From the NCBI GenBank assembly GCA_021846665.1, contig JAJZWM010000005.1:1-43132 (forward strand): DNA of 43,132 bases. The letters are read 5' to 3'. Positions 18,962-42,738 of the stretch are shown piece by piece. The notes under the pieces were generated by a model. It ran no database searches. It was given only the letters and a program-made list of their open reading frames with translations, and was not told the DNA's origin. A program made the position numbers and the translations under genes. The DNA comes from Nanobdellota archaeon. GTDB lineage: Archaea; Nanobdellota; Nanobdellia; Parvarchaeales; Parvarchaeaceae. Positions within the stretch are counted from its first letter, which is position 1. Each line of letters opens with the position of its first letter.

Positions 18962-20440
18962 ATGGAAAAAAATACTTATCAAATATTGCTTAGAGCTGCC
19001 CTAGGTTCAACTGCTTTGGCAGCGCATCATATCTCATCATTCGAATACTTTATAGATAATGGACTTAAGAAGATAATAGATAGCGAAGGTTTGATAGAGC
19101 CAGTTATAAAACCTTTAGGAGTTGACGATTTTAAAATAAAGATAAATAAAATAACAATTGGAAAACCAGACATAATAGAAGCAGATAGTATAGTGCGGTT
19201 AATTAATCCAATGGAAGCAAGAATTAGAGATCTTACTTACGATGCGCCTCTTATGCTTTCTGTTTCTTATTTAGCGGATGGTAAAGAAATTGTAAATGAG
19301 GATGTTTTTATAGGACGTATGCCAATAGTGGTAAAATCAAAATATTGCAATCTTTACGGCTTATCAGCCAGCGAATTAACTGAAGCAAAGGAAGATCCTA
19401 CAGACCCAGGAGGATACTTTATAATTAACGGAACCGAAAGGATAATAATAACTACAGAGGATCTTGCTCCAAACAATATATTGATTTCTAAAGATAATCA
19501 AGAAGGATTTAAGTTCACTGCAAAGATATTTGCTGATGCGGATGCAATAAAGGTTCCACATACTTTGCAGATTTCTGGTAGTAACCTCCTTTACATAACT
19601 TTCGGGAAGTTAAAAAGAGTGCCTATCATTACATTGATAAAAGCGTTAGGTGTTACTAATGAAAACGAAATAATCAAAAAGATAGGAAAAGATGATGAGG
19701 ACATAATAAATACAGTGGACATGAATCTTATAGCTTTTAATATAAATTCAGAAAATGAGGCATTAGATACAATTGGTAAGATGCTTCATTCAATTCATAC
19801 TAAAGAGACGGCAGAGCTGAACATAGATTCTCTATTGTTCCCATTTTTAGGCAGAGATAAAGACTCAAGAAAAATAAAAGCAGAGTACATTATGTATGTT
19901 TCAAATCTACTAATAAAGAGTGCATTGCAAGGAAAAGAAGTTGATAAAGACCATTATTCAAATAAAAGGCTGCATGCTGAAAGCTACAATCTCGATATGC
20001 TTTTCAGGTTCATATTCAAGCAGATATTGAATGATGCTAAGTATAACTTTGAAAGAGGGATAAGGAAAGACAGAGTTCCTAATCCAAAGTATATATTTAC
20101 TTCTGATCAATTGACGGCTAGGTTAAGGTCAGCACTCGCAACTGGTCAATGGGTCGGTGGCAGAGTAGGTATAACTCAGCATTTAGACAGAAGAAGCTTT
20201 CCATCAACAATATCACATTTAAGAAAGGTAGAGTCTTTACTTACTTCAAATAGGGAAAATTACAGGGCCAGAGATCTTCATGGAACTCAATTTGGTAGGT
20301 TCTGTGCAGTAGAAACTCCAGAAGGTCCAAAGATAGGTCTTACCAAGAACCTTGCGGTTTTATCTATGATGTCAAAAGAGGGTGTAGATACTGAAATGGT
20401 TAAAGGTTTACTGAAGAATTATGGGGTGAAAAAGATATGA
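18962..20440 (+). CDS. rpoB2: RNA polymerase subunit B'' (split RpoB, N-terminal part)
   Basis: 'GGYFIINGTERIIITTEDLAPN', 'RDLHGTQFGRFCAVETPEGPKIGLTKNLA'. Confidence 0.97.
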   Translation: MEKNTYQILLRAALGSTALAAHHISSFEYFIDNGLKKIIDSEGLIEPVIKPLGVDDFKIKINKITIGKPDIIEADSIVRLINPMEARIRDLTYDAPLMLSVSYLADGKEIVNEDVFIGRMPIVVKSKYCNLYGLSASELTEAKEDPTDPGGYFIINGTERIIITTEDLAPNNILISKDNQEGFKFTAKIFADADAIKVPHTLQISGSNLLYITFGKLKRVPIITLIKALGVTNENEIIKKIGKDDEDIINTVDMNLIAFNINSENEALDTIGKMLHSIHTKETAELNIDSLLFPFLGRDKDSRKIKAEYIMYVSNLLIKSALQGKEVDKDHYSNKRLHAESYNLDMLFRFIFKQILNDAKYNFERGIRKDRVPNPKYIFTSDQLTARLRSALATGQWVGGRVGITQHLDRRSFPSTISHLRKVESLLTSNRENYRARDLHGTQFGRFCAVETPEGPKIGLTKNLAVLSMMSKEGVDTEMVKGLLKNYGVKKI

Positions 20441-22239
20441 GTTTCGTATTTGTTAATGGTGTGCTTTCAGGAGTTACTGATGATCCAGGAAAGCTTGTTA
20501 AAGATATAATAGAAGATAGAAGGCAGAGCAAGATACCAAAGGAAATAAATGTAAGATATAGAAAAGATACGGATAGTGTAATGATAAATTCTGACAGTGG
20601 AAGACTACGCAGAGCGCTTATAGTAGTTAAAAATGGAAAGCCTTTGGTTACGAAAGAAGATGTAGAATTGCTTTCTGAAGGCCACTTGACTTGGCAGGAT
20701 CTAATTGATAAAGGAAAAATAGAATATCTCGATGCAGATGAAGAAGAGCTTGCTTACACTGCTTTAAATGAAGAAGATTTGACTCCTGCACACACTCATC
20801 TTGAGATAACTCCTCTTTCTGTTTTTGGTACACAAGCTTCATTACTTCCGTTTATAAATCATAGTAATGCACATAGAAACGTTACGGCGGTAAAAAGTGT
20901 GCAACAGGGTGTAGGTTTGTATACTACAAATTACCTAATAAGACATGACAATGACTCAATGATAGCAATTGATCAGCAGATGCCAATAGTTAAGACAGAA
21001 ATGTACGAAAATGAAAACTTTAAGTCTCATCTGGCTGGGCAAAACATAGTCGTAGCAGTGCTTTCTTATCTTGGTTATAACATGGACGATGCAATAATAA
21101 TAAATAAATCCTCGGTTGAGAGAGGACTTTTCAGAGCGATGTTTTTCAGACCATATAAAGTAGAGGAAATAAAATACGTTGGAGGGCAGAGTGACGTTAT
21201 AACTGTTCCAGATAAAGATGTGGCAGGTTATAGGTCAGAGGATTCATATAAATATCTTGATGAGGATGGTATAGCTGCCATAAATTCGCATGTTAACGGC
21301 GGAGACGTTCTTATTGGAAGGATTTCACCACCAAGATTTGTTTCTTCTATAGATAAATTTAGATTAGGGGTACAGAAACAGGTCGAATCTTCAATTGAAT
21401 GTAGGACTGGAGAAAATGGTGTTGTTGATAATGTATTTATAACTTCAACAGCAGAAGGAAATAAATACGTATCATTAAAGATAAGAGAGGATAGGCCTGT
21501 TGAAATCGGAGATAAGTTTGGGCCAAGAAGCGGACAGAAAGGAGTTGTAGGTATGCTTTTGAATCAAGAAGATATGCCATTTACTTATTCAGGAATAATC
21601 CCAGATTTAATATTCTCTCCTTATTCTATACCATCAAGAATGTCAATGTCTTATTTGCTTGAATTAATAGGTGGTAAAGTTGGATCGCTTGGAGGTAGAT
21701 ATATTGATGGTACTTCTTTTACAGGTGAAACAGAAGAAGATCTTAGAAAAGAATTGATGGAATATGGATTTAGAGAGAACGGTGTAGAAACAATGTACAA
21801 TGGTATAACCGGTGAAGAAATGAAAGTAAGAATATTTGTAGGAGACATGACTTATATAAGATTAAAGCATTTAGTTGAATATAAAATACAGTGGAGGGCT
21901 AGGGGTCCTATACAATTGCTTAATAGACAGCCTACTGAAGGAAAATCAAAACGTGGTGGACTTAGATTAGGAGAAATGGAGAAGGATTGTTTTGTAGCAT
22001 ATGGAACTGCTTTAGCTCTAAAGGAGAGGTTTGATTCAGATAAGGTTACTATTCCTGTGTGCTCAAAGTGTGGAATGGTTGCTGTTTATAATGTAAAAAA
22101 GAAGACAGGTTACTGTCCTATAGATGGAGAGGATGCGCAGATAAAACTCATAGAAGTATCAGTTTCATTTAAAATACTTCTTGATGAGTTAAAGTCAGTA
22201 GGAATATATCCAAAGATGGTTTTGGGGAGTAAAGTATGA
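20437..22239 (+). CDS. rpoB1: RNA polymerase subunit B' (split RpoB, C-terminal part)
   Basis: 'GQNIVVAVLSYLGYNMDDAIIINKSSVERG', 'GDKFGPRSGQKGVVGML', 'RARGPIQLLNRQPTEGKSKRGGLRLGEMEKDCFVAYG'. Confidence 0.97.
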   Translation: MSFVFVNGVLSGVTDDPGKLVKDIIEDRRQSKIPKEINVRYRKDTDSVMINSDSGRLRRALIVVKNGKPLVTKEDVELLSEGHLTWQDLIDKGKIEYLDADEEELAYTALNEEDLTPAHTHLEITPLSVFGTQASLLPFINHSNAHRNVTAVKSVQQGVGLYTTNYLIRHDNDSMIAIDQQMPIVKTEMYENENFKSHLAGQNIVVAVLSYLGYNMDDAIIINKSSVERGLFRAMFFRPYKVEEIKYVGGQSDVITVPDKDVAGYRSEDSYKYLDEDGIAAINSHVNGGDVLIGRISPPRFVSSIDKFRLGVQKQVESSIECRTGENGVVDNVFITSTAEGNKYVSLKIREDRPVEIGDKFGPRSGQKGVVGMLLNQEDMPFTYSGIIPDLIFSPYSIPSRMSMSYLLELIGGKVGSLGGRYIDGTSFTGETEEDLRKELMEYGFRENGVETMYNGITGEEMKVRIFVGDMTYIRLKHLVEYKIQWRARGPIQLLNRQPTEGKSKRGGLRLGEMEKDCFVAYGTALALKERFDSDKVTIPVCSKCGMVAVYNVKKKTGYCPIDGEDAQIKLIEVSVSFKILLDELKSVGIYPKMVLGSKV

Positions 22240-29295: not shown

Positions 29296-29823
29296 ATGGA
29301 TAAAAAAGGGCAGATATTCACAATAGACTTGCTTATCTCTTTGTTTATATTCTTGCTTTTATTTACAACAGTTCTCCTTTTTCTTTATTCAAATGCGGAC
29401 ATAGACAATTCTTATTCTTCTTATTATTCTCAAATAACTTCAAATTACATCAATAATATTGCGGTCCAGGGAGCTAGTTCTTTGATTGGTTCTGAAGGTT
29501 ATCCCTCAAATTGGTATTCTATTTCTTGTAACCAGATAAAGCAGGTAGGGGTTATGCAAAATAATCTTGAAGTATCACCGACAAAACTTTATAATCTTAC
29601 TACTTTACCATTATCATGTCTTTCTTCATTGCTTAAGACCGGTGATTCATTCAATATAACATTTTACTATCTAAATGGTTCAATATTAAAGCTGGGTGGA
29701 AAAGCTATAACAGCAGGTTTCCCAATAGATTATTCCTCTAATTATATAGCTTCTATACAGAGATTTACTGTGTTATATCCAGGTAATGAAATAATTAGAC
29801 TTTCTTATACGGAGTGGTCATGA
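29296..29823 (+). CDS. Type IV pilin-like protein (class III-type signal peptide)
   Basis: 'MDKKGQIFTIDLLISLFIFLLLFTTVLLFLY' prepilin-like short charged leader then hydrophobic helix. Confidence 0.65.
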   Translation: MDKKGQIFTIDLLISLFIFLLLFTTVLLFLYSNADIDNSYSSYYSQITSNYINNIAVQGASSLIGSEGYPSNWYSISCNQIKQVGVMQNNLEVSPTKLYNLTTLPLSCLSSLLKTGDSFNITFYYLNGSILKLGGKAITAGFPIDYSSNYIASIQRFTVLYPGNEIIRLSYTEWS

Positions 29824-30530
29824 ACAAAGGACAAGTTTTTACGATTGATCTTGTAGTCGGGAGCATAATAATACTCAGCGTTATAACTTCCGCATATGCA
29901 ATAACAAGCTATTATCTTAAGTTGAATAGTTCAATAACTACTGATAGCGATTTTATCTCTCAGGTATACTCTGCAGTTTCATCCTTTTCACTTGTTTCAT
30001 CTACAGAGAATCAGCTTTTATTATTTGAAAATGGTGGCTCTGCTTCAGCATTAGACTCTTATGTTTCCTCGGTTTTAGGTTCTGAATTATCCGGCCCATT
30101 CCTTTTAAATGTGTTCACAAAATCTAATTACTCAAACAGTTCTCTGCCGTCTAACCTTATATTTTCATATAACTCAAGGTTTTTATCATCTTCTTCCTAC
30201 TCTACTTTTTATGAGCCATTAGTTGTAACAAATTATAGTAGTGCATGCGGTTCATCATGTAATGCTTCTTTATCTATAAATAGTGTATTTCCCTCTTACA
30301 ATGACACGATAAATGCTCCAAATTGTAACGTACTTTATGGAAATGGAACAGTGACTGGATGGACTATATTAAATGATACTCCTTCGGGTTACTGTACAAT
30401 TCTTGTACCTTCTTACGCGAATCCAAACAGCTATGATGTTGTTACTTCCTCTTCAACAGGAGTTTCTACTGGTTCAGCTACTTTACATATCCTTGCTATA
30501 GATCTTTTGGAATTCAAAGTTCAGAAGTAA
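29814..30530 (+). CDS. Type IV pilin-like protein, paralog-like neighbour
   Basis: 'MNKGQVFTIDLVVGSIIILSVITSAYAI...' same KGQ-(I/V)FTIDL signature; Ser/Asn/Tyr-rich ectodomain. Confidence 0.65.
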   Translation: MVMNKGQVFTIDLVVGSIIILSVITSAYAITSYYLKLNSSITTDSDFISQVYSAVSSFSLVSSTENQLLLFENGGSASALDSYVSSVLGSELSGPFLLNVFTKSNYSNSSLPSNLIFSYNSRFLSSSSYSTFYEPLVVTNYSSACGSSCNASLSINSVFPSYNDTINAPNCNVLYGNGTVTGWTILNDTPSGYCTILVPSYANPNSYDVVTSSSTGVSTGSATLHILAIDLLEFKVQK

Positions 30531-34290: not shown

Positions 34291-36018
34291 ATGACAGAAT
34301 ATATGCTTAATAACAAGTTTAATGACCCTTTTAATAAGGTACAGTTTGGGGTTTCTATAGGGGAGAGAAATCAGTTGGAAGAGTTTTCTAAAGTTCTTAG
34401 AAGCGGTGCTAAGATGGTTGAAATAGATGTAGCAAGTGTGTACGGATTTGAAGGGGAGCAAGGCAATTCTGCGGATACACTGGGAAAAACAGAAAGAGAA
34501 GCAATAGCGAATCTTGCAAAGACAAATGATGTTGATTTGAGTGTTCATGCACCTTGGGCGATAAACTTTTCAGGGATAGAGCCGCAGTCCAAAGCCAAAT
34601 CAGAAGTATATGGACATCTTGTCGAAAAGGAAGTAGGAACAGCTTTGGAATTTGCCGATGACATAAGTAAAAAGATGGGCAGACAGAACATGCCTGTTAT
34701 TTTCCATGCTTCTTCGGATCATCTTTCAGATCCAGATAAAAGCTTAGTTTATTCAGTTTATGATGAAACAGAAAGCAAGGTTATTCAGATTCCAAAACAG
34801 GAAATAGAATTAGGTATCGATAAAGATAAGGTAAGCGATCCAGAAGAAAGAAAGAGAATAGCAATGCAGAAGTTTAAATCTATCTACGGGGAAAGCTTTT
34901 ATAAAAAAGTGTTTGAAAATAAGGATAATAACCGTCTTGGATTCGTTTCTGATGATGGTAAGGTGATATTGAACCCAGAAGGTGCGCTTGAATTTTATAA
35001 GAAAAGTAAGTCACAGCAGCTTAATCAGGAGATGGCTAATCTTAATATTAGTTTAAGGAATCTAGAATACCAGAAGACAGATCTTCTGGTGAAAATGAGT
35101 GCAGCAAAGGCGCAATCTGACAAAAAAGAAATCGATAATATACAAAGGGCTCTTGAAAGCATAGAAAACATGGCCAAAGATCTAAATCAAAGAAATTCAG
35201 AGCTAGAAATAGAGGAAAAAACACTTGATAATAGATTTGTACCGTATGATAAAAAGGCACCAGAACTTGCTGCTCAGGGTATAGTAAAAGCCGCGATGTT
35301 TTCTTATAACAATACAGAATCAAAACCAATGATACTCGTTGAAAACCCAATGTCGCCAGAAATGTCATTAAGTAACCCAAAAGATACCGCAGAAACAGTA
35401 AGAATAGCTAGAGAGGAGTTTGCAAAAGAACTACATGAAAAACAGCACTTATCACTTAAAGAAGCAGAAAAGATAAGCAGTGATATTATTGGTATAAATC
35501 TTGATATAGGGCATATAAATGTCTTTAAATCCTATATAAATCCAAAAACAGGACAGCCTTACTCTGATAAAGATATAGTAGAAATGGCTAAGGCTACTGA
35601 AGATTATCTAAAAAGATATCACTTAAATGATAATATGGGAAACAAAGATAGTCATCTTCCTTTGGGGCAAGGAAACGCTCCTATAAAGGAAGTTTACGAT
35701 GCAATGATGGAAAAAGGACTTGACGTTCCCGCAATAATGGAAGTATTTGGAGGATTAGGTGGACTTGAAGCAGGGTCTGTTCAGTCCTTACAATATATGG
35801 GAGCACCTTTGTATGGTAATACTCCATATGTATCCCTGCCATCATATCTTGGCCAGCCTTACTCTTCTATAGTGGGTGATTATTCCTCTTATTCTAATTT
35901 TGGATTGAAACAAGATATGTTCTCATATGGTGGTTTTTCAGGTATATTCCCTGCTGTAGGAGGTGGTTACATGGATAATAGAGGTAATTCAGGTTTTTCG
36001 GGGGCGCCAATGGTATAA
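34291..36018 (+). CDS. Xylose isomerase-like / AP-endonuclease family 2 TIM-barrel protein with coiled-coil insertion and Gly/Tyr-rich tail
   Basis: 'LSVHAPWAINFSG', 'VIFHASSDH', 'ILVENP', 'GINLDIGHINVFK', 'YHLNDNMGNKDSHLPLGQGNAPIKEVYDAM', 'AIMEVFGGLGG' TIM-barrel metal-ligand pattern. Confidence 0.8.
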   Translation: MTEYMLNNKFNDPFNKVQFGVSIGERNQLEEFSKVLRSGAKMVEIDVASVYGFEGEQGNSADTLGKTEREAIANLAKTNDVDLSVHAPWAINFSGIEPQSKAKSEVYGHLVEKEVGTALEFADDISKKMGRQNMPVIFHASSDHLSDPDKSLVYSVYDETESKVIQIPKQEIELGIDKDKVSDPEERKRIAMQKFKSIYGESFYKKVFENKDNNRLGFVSDDGKVILNPEGALEFYKKSKSQQLNQEMANLNISLRNLEYQKTDLLVKMSAAKAQSDKKEIDNIQRALESIENMAKDLNQRNSELEIEEKTLDNRFVPYDKKAPELAAQGIVKAAMFSYNNTESKPMILVENPMSPEMSLSNPKDTAETVRIAREEFAKELHEKQHLSLKEAEKISSDIIGINLDIGHINVFKSYINPKTGQPYSDKDIVEMAKATEDYLKRYHLNDNMGNKDSHLPLGQGNAPIKEVYDAMMEKGLDVPAIMEVFGGLGGLEAGSVQSLQYMGAPLYGNTPYVSLPSYLGQPYSSIVGDYSSYSNFGLKQDMFSYGGFSGIFPAVGGGYMDNRGNSGFSGAPMV

Positions 36019-37344: not shown

Positions 37345-37597
37345 TAGAACTTACTGTAGCTTCATCTAAACTGTTTATTACCGCCCCTCTATCTTTTAAA
37401 GCCTTTTGTATTCCTTCAAAGTTTATTTTTGAGCCTTCAATGACTATCTTTAATCCTTCAGTGTGTATATCAACTTCTACAACCTTTATGAAAACATCTC
37501 CATTTCTTACATGCTTTGCCATATCACTGGCTAGGTCTATTATACTGTACTCACCAATTGGCTTTACCGCATCTATAACAAGTCTACTTAAATACAT
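37325..37597 (-). CDS. DUF211 family protein
   Basis: 'YLSRLVIDAVKPIGEYSIIDLASDMAKHVRNGDVFIKVVEVDIHTEGLKIVIEGSKINFEGIQKALKDRGAVINSLDEATVS' matches archaeal DUF211. Confidence 0.88.
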   Translation of the reverse strand: MYLSRLVIDAVKPIGEYSIIDLASDMAKHVRNGDVFIKVVEVDIHTEGLKIVIEGSKINFEGIQKALKDRGAVINSLDEATVSSNGKSKK

Positions 37598-38040
37598 CAG
37601 TAACTCCGAAAGTATAAGTCACTTTCTAACTTTCCTGTTTCTGCGGCAATGCTTGCTATGGGCTTTTCCATGTATGCTTTAGCTAATTTTATCTTTGCTT
37701 TATTTCTGTTCTTTGAGCCTTTCTTCTTTTTAGATAATTGTCTATTTCTGATCTTAAGAAGCTTCTCTGATTCCTTAAGTATCTTTGGATTCTCGATTAA
37801 TTCTCCGTTAGAAGTAGCTATAATGGAAGCAAGGCCTACATCTATGCCAACAGCCTGAGCTGAAATATGTGTAAAGTTCTTTTCCTTTTTTATCTCTAGT
37901 GCCAGTTCATTTAAATCGTATCCTAACATACTCTCCTTCTCTTCCTTGTATGCTTCGATACTTGCTTCTTCTATCTGCTTGTTTAAGTTCTCTCCCAGTT
38001 CCCTCGCTGGATATATTCTATATTTAAATGCTCTCTTCAT
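37597..38040 (-). pseudogene. Internally deleted IS200/IS605-type TnpB (OrfB) relic, 147-aa ORF
   Basis: N-terminus 'MKRAFKYRIYP' and RuvC-I block 'AVGIDVGLASIIATSNGELIENPKILKESEKLLKIRNRQLSKKKKGSKNRNKAKIKLAK' are TnpB; most of the middle and the C-terminal RuvC-II/III and Zn-finger are absent. Confidence 0.85.
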
Positions 38041-38180: not shown

Positions 38181-38190
38181 ATATTTAAAT
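38181..38190 (+). promoter_or_regulatory. TATA box of prepilin gene (probable leaderless transcript)
   Basis: ATATTTAAAT centred about 22 nt before ATG at 38208, preceded by an A-rich BRE-like tract. Confidence 0.55.
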
Positions 38191-38207
38191 AGGATAAATC
38201 TTAATAG

Positions 38208-38606
38208 ATGAATATGATATTAAATAAAAAGGCTCAAGGCTTGCCTATAAATACTATTATACTTATAGCAGTAGGTCTGCTTATACTTGTTCTTTTAGTT
38301 ACATTTGTATTAGGCGGATTTAAGGGATTAGGAGGTGGTGCTAGTACAAGTAGTAGTGCCATTAGCGCATTTGAGGCACAGTGTCAAACGACGGCCTCTT
38401 CTGCTTCTTCATCTGGTTCTTTTCCTTACAGTTGGTGTAGTTCAACAACAAAAGAATCTAATGGTAAGATTCTATGGTGTTACACAAATCCTTCATCGCT
38501 TTCAAATACCACTACTATAACTTTATATAATGGAACTACATTAGCAGGGCCTGCTACTTCAGGTGCGCCAACTGGTTCTAATATAGTAAATTGTCCTGCT
38601 CCATAA
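38208..38606 (+). CDS. Archaeal type IV pilin-like protein (class III signal peptide)
   Basis: 'NKKAQGLPINTIILIAVGLLILVLLVTFVLGGFKG' prepilin leader/helix; Ser/Thr-rich ectodomain with 3 Cys pattern 'CQ..WC..WC..NC'. Confidence 0.8.
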   Translation: MNMILNKKAQGLPINTIILIAVGLLILVLLVTFVLGGFKGLGGGASTSSSAISAFEAQCQTTASSASSSGSFPYSWCSSTTKESNGKILWCYTNPSSLSNTTTITLYNGTTLAGPATSGAPTGSNIVNCPAP

Positions 38607-38613
38607 GTAGCCT

Positions 38614-38639
38614 TCATTAAAAAGCTTTTTATTTAATGA
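38614..38639 (+). terminator. Inverted repeat between pilin and downstream gene (terminator or operator)
   Basis: TCATTAAA-N10-TTTAATGA, 8-bp stem, containing AAAAAGCTTTTT; T-rich tract follows. Confidence 0.35.
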
Positions 38640-38654
38640 CTTTGTTTTTAGTAA

Positions 38655-39290
38655 ATGAAGAAAAGACATACTTTAACTAATGTATTAATGATAGTGCTTT
38701 TAATAATAATTCTGATAGCAATATTTTATGCATTTAAAATGCATATAGTTCTCTTTAATTCCTGCTATTTTGCAAATGAAACCCTTGCAGTGAATGGTTC
38801 AGGGCCTTTTTGCCTGTCAAATAGTGGTGTAAACATAATAATAAATCGGTCTATACTTTCTTATTATCCAAATTCTACTTTAGCAATACACAATCAGAAT
38901 GTTTCTGCTTTGCCATTTTCATTTCTTGATAATAAGCCTTTAATAACAGTATGGAATGAACCTACGGTTTTGGGCCAAGATTCATACTCATTCCTTACAA
39001 TACCTGATACTTTCAAAGTTCATATGGTATACAATGCATCAGTATCTACTAATTTTATAGTTATGACTAATCAGCAATACGTTGAATGGGTAACTACAAA
39101 ACAGATTAATAACAATTATGTGGCTATTGCAACAGGTAAAAATATATCTGTATGGTTCAATGAAAGTACTGGGTGTGCAGGTTATGTTGCGGTCATCAAA
39201 CCTGTTTCAGGTAATGCTGTTACAATTTCGCCAGACGAAAAAATACTTTATGACCCTGCTACTTCACCAACAGGGGCATGTGCTGGCTGA
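38655..39290 (+). CDS. Exported/anchored single-TM protein, Cys-containing ectodomain
   Basis: 'MKKRHTLTNVLMIVLLIIILIAIFYAFKM' anchor; 4 Cys and several N-x-S/T sequons in the ectodomain. Confidence 0.65.
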   Translation: MKKRHTLTNVLMIVLLIIILIAIFYAFKMHIVLFNSCYFANETLAVNGSGPFCLSNSGVNIIINRSILSYYPNSTLAIHNQNVSALPFSFLDNKPLITVWNEPTVLGQDSYSFLTIPDTFKVHMVYNASVSTNFIVMTNQQYVEWVTTKQINNNYVAIATGKNISVWFNESTGCAGYVAVIKPVSGNAVTISPDEKILYDPATSPTGACAG

Positions 39291-39328
39291 AATGTCAATT
39301 TTAAATTGTTTAATTTACATTATATAAC

Positions 39329-39940
39329 ATGGAAATCGATATTTTTGATGCGGTAAATGAGCTAAAGAGCTTTTATGAAGACAATGCTCCTCTTTCGAAG
39401 ATAAGTGGTTTGATAAATTATAAGAAAGTATCCATAAGTCTTGAATACAAAGAGAGCGTTATAACAATAAAGTCGCAGCATCCTTTAACAATAAAAATAT
39501 ATAAAATATATAATATCTTGCTAAGACTTTTCCTTATAAACTCTGTAAAATTAACTATCGATTTTATAGAGAATAATCAGCAAAAATCGGTTTCAAAGCA
39601 ATTCGGTTCGGATGAAAACATAGATCCTGTAATAGAAGATCTTAAGGGTTTACCTCATGATAGCATAACTGACATAGTAATTGATACAGATTACTTTAAA
39701 ATAGTTGAAACTCAAGATATGAGTGATAAAGTTTCTATAATGCTTAAAAAGAGTGGTAAAAAGGAACTTTTTAAAAGTCTTTCAAATTATCTTTTTCCAT
39801 TCATAAATATGCCTGCAAATGAGTCTTTGTTGGAGGAAATAAGTTTTCTAAAACAGGAGGATCAGCTGACAGTGGATGTATTAATGAAGATTGATGGTTC
39901 CCCGATGGGGATAAAATCAAAAAAAGTAAGGTTGGTTTAA
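39329..39940 (+). CDS. Hypothetical protein in the KaiC/GTPase cluster
   Basis: 203-aa ORF ending 1 nt before the next start; no family recognised. Confidence 0.65.
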   Translation: MEIDIFDAVNELKSFYEDNAPLSKISGLINYKKVSISLEYKESVITIKSQHPLTIKIYKIYNILLRLFLINSVKLTIDFIENNQQKSVSKQFGSDENIDPVIEDLKGLPHDSITDIVIDTDYFKIVETQDMSDKVSIMLKKSGKKELFKSLSNYLFPFINMPANESLLEEISFLKQEDQLTVDVLMKIDGSPMGIKSKKVRLV

Positions 39941-39941
39941 T

Positions 39942-40610
39942 ATGGAAGGAATAAAAACTGGTTTTAAAAATTTTGATGAGCTTACTAATGGTTTGGATTA
40001 CAGAAGAGTTTATTCTTTATTTGGAAACAAAGAATCAGGAAAAGAACAGTTTATATATAAACTTGTGCAGTCTGCACTTTCAGCTAAGGATGCAATTGTT
40101 TATGTTTTAACTTCAAAGTCATATTCTGATTTAATAAATGAATTCAATTCCAGAGGTATAAATATAAATTCGTATCTTGGTACAGATTTTAAAATATTGG
40201 ATGATTTTAGCAGGACAAATTCACCTAGTGCCACGGATAATTCCTATGCTAAGATATTAAATGGGCCTTTGGATCTAACAGGTTTATCAGTTTCTTTATC
40301 GAGTGCTAACAGTGATTTTATAAAAGATGCAAAGCCAGTTATAAACATATTTGATAACTTGTCAAATCTACTTTTATACAATAATCCTGTAACAGTATAT
40401 AGATTTCTTCAGTTTGTTGTCGGCAAGGCAAAGTTAGCAGGAATAACTACAATATTCTCTATAGACGTTGCTATGCATCCACCGGAAGTTATAGAAACTA
40501 TAAAGAACCTATCTGATGCAATAATAGACCTGAAACTTGAAGATGGTAAAAGATATTTTAAGCTCTCTGGTACAAGCAAAGAAGTACTTCAGTTTACGGA
40601 AATTGAATGA
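39942..40610 (+). CDS. KaiC/RecA-like protein with degenerate Walker A
   Basis: 'GIKTGFKNFDELTNGLDYRRVYSLFGNKESGKEQFIYKLVQSAL' (GNKESGKE instead of GxxxxGKT/S); 'PVINIFDNLSNLLLY' at Walker B position. Confidence 0.75.
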   Translation: MEGIKTGFKNFDELTNGLDYRRVYSLFGNKESGKEQFIYKLVQSALSAKDAIVYVLTSKSYSDLINEFNSRGININSYLGTDFKILDDFSRTNSPSATDNSYAKILNGPLDLTGLSVSLSSANSDFIKDAKPVINIFDNLSNLLLYNNPVTVYRFLQFVVGKAKLAGITTIFSIDVAMHPPEVIETIKNLSDAIIDLKLEDGKRYFKLSGTSKEVLQFTEIE

Positions 40611-40644
40611 TATTTTATATCTAATTGGTCAATTTATTCAGAGG

Positions 40645-40656
40645 ATATATTTAAAA
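40645..40656 (+). promoter_or_regulatory. TATA box upstream of KaiC-GTPase fusion
   Basis: ATATATTTAAAA about 31 nt before ATG 40682. Confidence 0.45.
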
Positions 40657-40681
40657 GCAATAATTACTATATCTTTATTAT

Positions 40682-41923
40682 ATGGCAGAATATAAAGGGT
40701 TAGATGGAGTAACAGATAAGGACTTTGATCCTTACTTTGGAATAGCCAAGCTAGATGAACAACTTAAAGGAATACCGTCTAAGAAGATGGTATTAATATC
40801 TGCTTCACCATCAGTAGGAAATGAAGTTTTTGGGTATCAGATAATACATAAGAATATAACCTCTGATGTAAAAGTTCTTGTATTTCTTAATAGGACTTCT
40901 CCGCAATCATATCTTACAGATATGAAGGAATATGATTTTCCAGCAAATGATAATTTATTCATAATAGATGCATATAGTGGTATAACTGGTATAAAATCTG
41001 ATGAAACTGATCATATAAGAGTTATAAATAATCCTTATGATAAGGAAGAAGTAAAGACAAGGGTTCTTAAAGAACTAGAGAATGGATATGGCTTATTTGT
41101 AATAGACTCTTTCTCATTGCTTGCAGATTTCTTCGATTTTTCATTTGCTGATTCATTCATGAATGATATAAAACAGAAAATTATAAATAAAGATTCAGCA
41201 GCGGTGCTTCTTTTTACAGATTGGGGCTACGAAAAACAAAACGTAGATAAAATAATTTCGAATGTCAATTCGACAATAGAGATTAAAGGAATAGAAAAGC
41301 GGGTTATCTTTGGTCAATACTTTGCAGTATTAAAGTGCGATTGGATCGAAGAAAATCCGACATTTTCATCTGTTTTATTTAAAGCAATTAAACCTGGAGG
41401 AATAAAAGTTTATTTCCCCAAGATTTTAGTTACGGGGCCAACTGATGCAGGTAAAAGTTCTTTTATACATAGTGCTTCTAAAAATGCTGTAAGTGTAGAT
41501 AAGCTTGGAGGCACTATAGCATTGGATCATGGAACAGTTGATTTTCAGGGTTATCGTGCGGATTTATTTGGAACTCCAGGACAGGAGAGATTTGATCCTT
41601 TACTTAAAATGCTTGGTGGTGAGGCCATTGGAGTATTTCTTGTGGTAGACTCGACTAAGCCAGAACAATTCCCAAGAGCAGTTGAGATGCTTAGGAAAAC
41701 AGAAACTTATGGTTTGCCTGTAGTAGTAATTGCAAATAAAGCTGATCTTAATGGCTCTCTTAAAAAAGAGGATATAAGAGAAAAGCTTCATTTAGATTCT
41801 GCAATAACTTTAGTACAGACAGTTGCGGAGGATCTATCAAAAGTAGATCCGAATGAACCAATAAAATTAAAGGAGGAGGGAGTAAACGAGGCGTTATCTG
41901 CTTTGTTCAAGCAGTTAACATAA
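40682..41923 (+). CDS. Degenerate KaiC-like domain fused to Ras-like small GTPase (MglA/Rup, COG2229-like)
   Basis: N-term 'FDPYFGIAKLDEQLKGIPSKKMVLISASPSVGNEVFGYQIIHKN' (no GK[ST]) with 'GYGLFVIDSFSLL'; C-term G1 'GPTDAGKSSF', 'GGTIALDHGTVDF', G3 'DLFGTPGQERFDPLL', G4 'NKAD'. Confidence 0.88.
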   Translation: MAEYKGLDGVTDKDFDPYFGIAKLDEQLKGIPSKKMVLISASPSVGNEVFGYQIIHKNITSDVKVLVFLNRTSPQSYLTDMKEYDFPANDNLFIIDAYSGITGIKSDETDHIRVINNPYDKEEVKTRVLKELENGYGLFVIDSFSLLADFFDFSFADSFMNDIKQKIINKDSAAVLLFTDWGYEKQNVDKIISNVNSTIEIKGIEKRVIFGQYFAVLKCDWIEENPTFSSVLFKAIKPGGIKVYFPKILVTGPTDAGKSSFIHSASKNAVSVDKLGGTIALDHGTVDFQGYRADLFGTPGQERFDPLLKMLGGEAIGVFLVVDSTKPEQFPRAVEMLRKTETYGLPVVVIANKADLNGSLKKEDIREKLHLDSAITLVQTVAEDLSKVDPNEPIKLKEEGVNEALSALFKQLT

Positions 41924-41935
41924 TTATTTAAATAA
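41924..41935 (+). promoter_or_regulatory. TATA box of Roadblock gene (probable leaderless transcript)
   Basis: TTATTTAAATAA centred about 24 nt before ATG 41954. Confidence 0.5.
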
Positions 41936-41953
41936 GAAAATCGTAAATTAACT

Positions 41954-42328
41954 ATGGCTACAAAATCTGAACAATTAAAAAGCGTTTTACAAAGATTAAG
42001 TACGGTTGGTGGAATAAAGGCATCTGCTGTTATATCAGCTAATGGTTTACCTATGGTATCATTAATGCCTGAAGACGTAGATCCAAATACTTTTGCTGCA
42101 ATGCTGGCTTCAATGGTAGGTTCAGCAGAAACAGCTATCAAATCTTTAGGTGCAAAGAATACTCTAGAAAGAGTAGTTGCAGAGTCAAAAGATATAAGGG
42201 TAGTAGCTGTACAAGCAGGAACTGATGCAATACTTACAATAATGATTGATCCTAATACAAATTATGGTTTGATTCTTTTAGAATCTTCTAAAGCTTCAAA
42301 TGAAATAGCAGAAATAATGAAGCAATAA
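41954..42328 (+). CDS. Roadblock/LC7 domain protein (MglB-like)
   Basis: 'LQRLSTVGGIKASAVISANGLPMVSLMPEDVDPNTFAAMLASMVGSAETAIKSLG...VVAVQAGTDAILTIMIDPNTNYGLILLESSKAS' Roadblock pattern. Confidence 0.9.
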   Translation: MATKSEQLKSVLQRLSTVGGIKASAVISANGLPMVSLMPEDVDPNTFAAMLASMVGSAETAIKSLGAKNTLERVVAESKDIRVVAVQAGTDAILTIMIDPNTNYGLILLESSKASNEIAEIMKQ

Positions 42329-42330
42329 GA

Positions 42331-42738
42331 ATGTCATTTGTTCTTTTTATTTGTAAGTATAATACTAGCAGAAGTCAAATAGCAGAAGCATTGTTTAATG
42401 GACTTACTAAAAAACATAAAGCTGTAAGTGTAGCAGGCAGTTCTGTTGGTAATGGAATAAATTCTATAGATATAAAATTAGTACAAGAAACATTTGGAAT
42501 AGACATGAGTAAGCAAATTCCTAAACTACCTACTCTAAATTTATTGAAAAGCGCTGACAAAATAATAGTTGTCTGTGATCCTAAGGATTGCATACTTATA
42601 CCAGAAAGCTATATACAAAAAGCGGAGCACTGGTACATACCAGAATTAGATGGTCTTTCTGCAGAAGAAAAAATAAAAATAATTAAGGAGATATACAAAA
42701 AAGTAAAGGAATTAATTTTAGAGCTGGATAGAGAATAA
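42331..42738 (+). CDS. Low-molecular-weight protein tyrosine phosphatase / ArsC-like
   Basis: P-loop 'VLFICKYNTSRSQIAEALFN' (CX5RS); 'GIDMSKQIPKL', 'ADKIIVVCDPKDC', 'AEHWYIPELDGLSAEEKIKIIKEI'. Confidence 0.87.
   Translation: MSFVLFICKYNTSRSQIAEALFNGLTKKHKAVSVAGSSVGNGINSIDIKLVQETFGIDMSKQIPKLPTLNLLKSADKIIVVCDPKDCILIPESYIQKAEHWYIPELDGLSAEEKIKIIKEIYKKVKELILELDRE

Follow-up and report, generated by a model that had tools for sequence, protein, structure and literature searches.

A gene cluster at positions 38208-42738 of a 43,132-nucleotide stretch of DNA (the window), which is contig 33 of a 725-kb, 39-contig metagenome-assembled genome of Candidatus Parvarchaeota, was analysed by sequence comparison. 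The core of this cluster is a unit of four genes, encoding in order a 203-aa protein (u203), a small KaiC-like protein (pKaiC), a fusion of a KaiC-like domain with a small GTPase (KaiC-GTPase), and a Roadblock/LC7 protein; the genes of a pilin and of a single-span membrane protein (ecto) join it in the window's genus and its sister G030. This core unit is probably a G-protein switch of the MglA/MglB type, with the GTPase fused to a dead KaiC domain and a KaiC-like partner beside it, that regulates the assembly of type IV pili. Since the same fusion is kept beside complete type IV pilus machinery in distant relatives, surface pili are the probable target of its control. The host is a tiny, acid-loving archaeon; close relatives, whose KaiC-GTPase proteins share 91-94% identity with its own, bear the labels Candidatus Parvarchaeota or Nanoarchaeota.

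The initial annotation had described seven co-directional open reading frames (ORFs) in this region, and all seven lie where it placed them, on the plus strand (Table 1). The domains of its two pseudo-KaiC proteins and its GTPase were confirmed; the second pseudo-KaiC and the GTPase are encoded by one fused gene. The u203-pKaiC, pKaiC-KaiC-GTPase and KaiC-GTPase-Roadblock junctions were each intact in all 27 Parvarchaeaceae loci examined, with gaps of mostly -4 to 5 bp (range -8 to +5), 33-50 bp and 30-35 bp, respectively. The ecto and u203 genes were adjacent in 25 of these 27 loci. The pilin and ecto genes adjoined each other in 22 loci; of the seven others, four were interrupted where a contig ends and three belong to the rearranged genomes G028 and G029. 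Apparent losses of the pilin in G011 and G020 were contigs ending in or next to the pilin gene and were not counted as losses. Because the three junctions were unbroken and the pilin and ecto genes were separable, the core was taken to be four genes. Six genes held a constant order across the window's genus at identities down to about 40-60%, which argues that most of the seven-gene layout is more than chance.

The seventh gene, encoding a low-molecular-weight (LMW) phosphatase, had been counted as part of the switch. It adjoined the Roadblock gene in just 8/27 loci, all in the subclade nearest to the window, and was therefore rejected as a member of the system and regarded as a subclade add-on. 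Its protein scored below the cut-off of the arsC_pI258 model. The gene may have been added for arsenic resistance in mine-drainage lineages.

The pilus role is independently supported by distant, class-level relatives in unrelated families. A profile of the fusion was searched within the phylum (259 sampled genera, E ≤ 1e-25), and its distribution was patchy, with matches in seven genera, one of which (G042) matched over the KaiC part only. In G227, genes for a KaiC protein, five class III-like prepilins, PilB (PF00437, 7e-30) and two TadC proteins (both PF00482) are followed 134 bp behind by the fusion gene, and then by a membrane protein gene, Roadblock genes interspersed with HAMP and PAS genes, and pKaiC. 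In the single-contig 1.3-Mb genome G068, the order is PilB, intact KaiC, five prepilins and then the fusion, 104 bp past the last pilin gene; pKaiC comes after a HAMP gene. Since G227 and G068 each contain only a few PilB-like loci per 1.3 Mb, this proximity in both genomes is unlikely to have arisen by chance. Class III pilin genes are convergent with the fusion and pKaiC in G054, a pilin-like gene lies two genes downstream of Roadblock in G028, and pilin-type genes adjoin the KaiC part-homologue of G042. The Roadblock gene adjoins the fusion gene in G108, G227 and G344, as it does in the 27 family loci. Sensor genes (PAS, HAMP, V4R) stand beside or between Roadblock and pKaiC in G227, G344 and G108, and a FIST sensor is also among the genes flanking the module in distant relatives. 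One region of G227 (L104:1354-9335) holds an expanded sensor array, in which three Roadblock genes alternate with HAMP, FIST, PAS and metallo-beta-lactamase-fold genes.

The host genome itself encodes parts of a type IV pilus. The pilin of the cluster has the features of a class III (type IV) prepilin, namely a short basic leader, an [AG]Q site and a hydrophobic helix of ~20 aa. Its translation probably starts at 38214, at a Met common to all 22 homologues, and processing is predicted between KKA and QGLPIN. A K[AG]QGLPINTIILIAIGLLILVLFITF-type N-terminus was found in nearly all of the 22 homologues; the N-terminal helix was almost invariant (mean pairwise identity of 91%), the head was variable (33%), and three Cys residues were kept in every homologue. 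This class III assignment is motif-based, because none of the Pfam/NCBIfam families matched the pilin; the same search matched no family to ecto or u203. Another member of this pilin family is encoded elsewhere in the genome (G000:C21:9712-10065, minus strand, L115) and has a KGQGLPISTLIIIILG leader.

Two overlapping minor pilin genes (29296-30530) were found 8 kb upstream of the cluster. A hidden Markov model (HMM) of the gene at 29296, built from Parvarchaeaceae copies only, matched the 175-aa pilins of the G227 and G068 loci (1.6e-15 and 5.2e-13, respectively). This homology ties the window's own pilus to the kind encoded at the fusion-linked loci, and the 29296 product is probably a further structural component of that pilus. 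The assembly ATPase and TadC platform that a type IV pilus requires are encoded by one PilB gene (PF00437) and two TadC genes (PF00482) at G000:C36 (L080), a locus with neither pilin nor KaiC genes. No archaellum genes were seen near the cluster or this motor locus. In a PilB tree, the host ATPase fell into a well-supported 18-row clade (100/99) together with the fusion-linked PilBs, whose subclade (97/91) includes a PilB of G054, another carrier of the fusion.

The fusion protein consists of a KaiC-like domain (about residues 1-235) and an MglA-like GTPase (about residues 245-413). In the KaiC half, SASPSVGNE replaces the Walker A motif GxxxxGK[ST], and Walker A is also lost in G068 and G108; the intact Walker A expected of a catalytic KaiC-like ATPase is thus absent from this domain. 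The smaller pKaiC keeps the P-loop SGK and a Walker-B-like Asp, with Glu/Asp in place of Ser/Thr after the lysine. Hence, of the two KaiC-like proteins that had been called degenerate, the fusion fits the description and pKaiC does so only in part. In the GTPase half, the G1 motif is GPTDAGKS (GPxxxGK[ST] in all 23 sequences), the G3 motif is FGTPGQERFDP (GTPGQ in 22 of 23), and the NK of the G4 motif NKxD is kept in 22/23. Among family members, conservation is higher in the GTPase half than in the KaiC half (mean pairwise identities of 81% vs 62%), and the protein scored above the cut-off of TIGR00231 (small_GTP). The best Pfam and PDB matches of the GTPase domain are generic Arf/Ras proteins.

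The genes of the fusion and the Roadblock protein are each single copy in the host genome. In PDB profile searches, pKaiC matched KaiC and the ArlH/FlaH structure 4yds, and the Roadblock protein matched Roadblock/LC7 proteins and also MglB. The Roadblock/LC7 fold of an MglB-type GTPase-activating protein (GAP) was recognised in it (PF03259 and the MglB profile matches), and its Asp/Asn-Gly pair is similar to one reported as conserved in MglB of groups 2-5; its score with the NCBIfam MglB equivalog was just 17 of 200 bits.

No relative of u203 was found in the PDB or Pfam. The idea that u203 is a hidden Roadblock protein was rejected (hhalign probability of 0.2%), and a low-confidence model (predicted local distance difference test, pLDDT, of 63) gave no Foldseek match, the best E value being 8.6e-3 at a TM score of about 0.2. 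Homologues of u203 occurred at the 27 family loci, and a lone distant one was found in G039 (L111:9318-9953, E value of 1.3e-9), not far from an EF-Tu-like GTPase gene; the fusion had no match in G039 at the threshold used. Ecto matched no known family in Pfam/NCBIfam and profile searches. Its Cys residues 37, 53, 174 and 209 are all kept in the 21 aligned homologues, and its predicted structure (pLDDT of 38) was unusable. The alignments behind the u203 and ecto predictions were shallow, because the predictor input was restricted to close relatives.

The unit shares features with several known systems. A GTPGQ G3 motif characterises MglA groups 2-5, archaeal group 4 included (PMC4316618, Wuichet & Sogaard-Andersen 2014), and the control of type IV pili by MglA is established in bacteria (PMC7668184, PMC9481161). 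The unit resembles MglA/MglB of Myxococcus and Thermus in that a GTPGQ GTPase, whose bacterial MglA counterpart controls type IV pili, is encoded beside a Roadblock protein. It departs from the MglA family, a single domain of 150-240 aa, in that the GTPase forms the C-terminal half of a 413-aa KaiC fusion. The MglA survey left out proteins longer than 240 aa and reported archaeal group 4 to be without conserved neighbours (PMC4316618); a pilus context would therefore give these group 4 GTPases a testable role. As with ArlH/FlaH, a KaiC-like P-loop domain occurs with type IV pilus-type machinery. However, the score with the ArlH equivalog (18 bits) was far below its cut-off (215 bits), ArlH is encoded with ArlI/ArlJ whereas no KaiC gene stands at the host PilB/TadC locus, and, unlike ArlH, one of the KaiC copies lacks Walker A and is joined to a GTPase. 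Inactivated KaiC-like domains (iKaiC) are mentioned as components of archaeal signal transduction in PMC5847659, citing Makarova et al. 2017; such a domain is common to both, and its partner in the present unit is an MglA-like GTPase. KaiC-family ATPases and Roadblock proteins of arCOG02603 have already been noted at archaeal type IV pilus loci (PMC4858521). No description of pilus loci with a KaiC-MglA fusion and Roadblock was found in the literature searched, which did not cover Makarova 2017. The unit would join two kinds of regulator, MglA/MglB of bacterial type IV pili and KaiC-like ArlH of archaella, in a single conserved set of archaeal genes.

The MglA-like domain would cycle between GTP and GDP in the cytoplasm, with the single-copy Roadblock protein as its probable GAP, guanine nucleotide exchange factor or platform, in an MglB-like manner. 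The fused KaiC-like domain, having lost its P-loop, may be a docking or oligomerisation module on pKaiC or the motor. pKaiC, with its partial nucleotide site, could be an ArlH-like partner engaging the PilB/TadC motor encoded elsewhere; this is proposed by analogy with ArlH, an ATP-binding protein that stimulates the motor ATPase ArlI (PMC8978795). Sensor proteins appear to feed the module in distant relatives, and u203 and/or ecto may fill that place in Parvarchaeaceae, where no PAS-, HAMP- or V4R-type sensor gene is present within the unit. The pilin and minor pilins would be the structural output. The assembly, placement or retraction of the pilus might be set in this way, perhaps by direct action on the motor, and control of polarity, or of adhesion as the initial annotation suggested, is possible. 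A more specific version can be offered only tentatively, in which the dead KaiC-GTPase and the second KaiC-like protein form an ArlH-type assembly on the motor, Roadblock-controlled GTP hydrolysis decides whether pili are built, and these are the contact pili of a host-dependent archaeon. DPANN archaea rely on hosts, and pili may be their means of contact (PMC10134863). If so, the unit includes a single-copy switch that may control this contact.

Several observations weigh against a pilus switch. The fusion is accompanied by exported or sensor genes, not PilB, in G344 and G108, where the layout is fusion-Roadblock-PAS sensor-pKaiC and the neighbours are V4R or exported proteins. The nearest rival is a general signalling module of the conservon type (sensor, Roadblock, GTPase and KaiC), whose output varies among gene expression, secretion and envelope functions and for which pilus genes are one neighbour among several. 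The PAS, V4R, HAMP and FIST sensors and exported proteins around the fusion of these two genomes agree with such a module, as does the resemblance to the actinobacterial CvnA-D operon (PMC13343842), which likewise combines a sensor, a Roadblock protein, a Ras-like GTPase and a small unknown protein; the sensors of the far relatives are interchangeable. However, pilus or prepilin genes adjoin the fusion in G227, G068, G054, G028 and the window's genus, and the Parvarchaeaceae unit is without a sensor gene. Neither a CvnA histidine kinase nor a DUF742 CvnC protein was found in the cluster or among the scanned products of distant relatives, and KaiC domains and linkage to pilus genes are seen instead. 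We thus regard a general module as doubtful. More remote still is an intracellular organiser of the envelope, division or vesicle-like membranes, similar to Rag/Ragulator and with no pilus role. Roadblock-GTPase pairs of Asgard archaea are tied to membrane signalling (PMC10933270), and generic Roadblock/LC7 proteins rank ahead of MglB among the PDB matches of the Roadblock protein. Pilus linkage in several lineages and a G3 motif of the MglA kind, not of Rab/Rag, make such an organiser highly improbable.

The other points concern the linkage itself. The pilin, ecto and core of G028 are on three different contigs, the pilin of G029 is apart from the core, and no ecto was found in G029; the link of the pilin to the KaiC-GTPase-Roadblock core, proposed in the initial annotation, thus held for the genus and G030 and failed on the separate contigs of G028 and G029. 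Synteny is just as tight for the upstream genes 34291 and 36018 as it is for the pilin, so that linkage inside the family alone is weak evidence of function. These data would suit plain synteny, in which the pilin and ecto stem from an ancestral block with 29296, 34291 and 36018 and came to lie beside an unrelated GTPase-KaiC unit by chance in this genus; the G029 pilin and the G028 ecto remain with 34291-36018 while the core is elsewhere. This explanation seems improbable to us, since entire pilus loci adjoin the fusion in unrelated families and the minor pilin of Parvarchaeum has a homologue among the pilins of those loci. Besides, the arrangement of G068 and G227 may have been inherited from one ancestor, the PilB tree resolves the Parvarchaeum PilB to the level of the 18-row clade and not relative to the fusion-linked PilBs, and u203 and ecto have no recognisable fold. 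With these points considered, a GTPase/Roadblock/KaiC switch for a pilus-like structure, as the initial annotation had it, is supported in its tie to pili by the G227 and G068 loci and the linkage in the genus and G030, and the link to the pilin is conditional.

Table 1 Genes and TATA-like elements of the cluster and the upstream minor pilin genes
Feature	Position	Strand	Basis or remark
Class III prepilin-like protein, 132 aa	38208..38606	+	ORF, motif; probable start 38214
Ecto, single-span membrane protein, Cys-containing ectodomain, 211 aa	38655..39290	+	Hydrophobic N-terminal segment, 21 aligned homologues
u203, predicted soluble alpha/beta protein, 203 aa, no recognised fold; first core-unit gene	39329..39940	+	
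pKaiC, small KaiC-like protein, 222 aa	39942..40610	+	PF06745 2.5e-11
KaiC-GTPase fusion, 413 aa	40682..41923	+	KaiC 2.8e-6 plus Arf/Ras 7e-11 / 3e-8 (Pfam)
Roadblock/LC7 protein (Robl_LC7), 124 aa	41954..42328	+	PF03259 3.6e-14
LMW-phosphatase / arsenate-reductase-like protein, C-x5-R motif	42331..42738	+	PF01451 (LMWPc) 3e-10; lineage add-on
Class III-like minor pilin	29296..29823	+	Parvarchaeaceae-only HMM matches G227 and G068 locus pilins
Second class III-like minor pilin, ~10-bp overlap with first	29814..30530	+	N-terminal NKGQVFTIDLVVGSI motif; pair adjacent in relatives too
TATA-like element of pilin gene, TTTAAATA	38184..38191	+	TTTAAAT-type, about 25-30 bp 5' of start in all complete homologous loci compared
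TATA-like element of ecto gene, CTTTTTATTTA	38625..38635	+	Kept in close relatives
TATA-like element of u203 gene, TTTTAAAT	39299..39306	+	TTTAAAT-type, most of 26 loci
TATA-like element of KaiC-GTPase gene, TTTAAAAG	40650..40657	+	Kept only in window's close clade
TATA-like element of Roadblock gene, TTTAAATA	41927..41934	+	TTTAAAT/CTTAAAT-type, essentially all of 26 loci

The cluster does not look like a single-promoter operon. Since TATA-like elements precede the pilin, ecto, u203, fusion (in the close clade) and Roadblock genes, transcription of the whole cluster from one promoter was not supported, and the genes appear to form co-directional transcription units rather than one transcript.

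Two further observations were made in the window. A 147-aa OrfB_IS605 (TnpB-like) remnant (37597-38040, minus strand; PF01385, 1.6e-12), apparently truncated, lies between a DUF211 gene and the pilin gene; in most relatives these two genes are just about 75-300 bp apart. The gene of RNA polymerase subunit B (18962-22239) is split into two adjacent genes encoding 492 and 600 aa.

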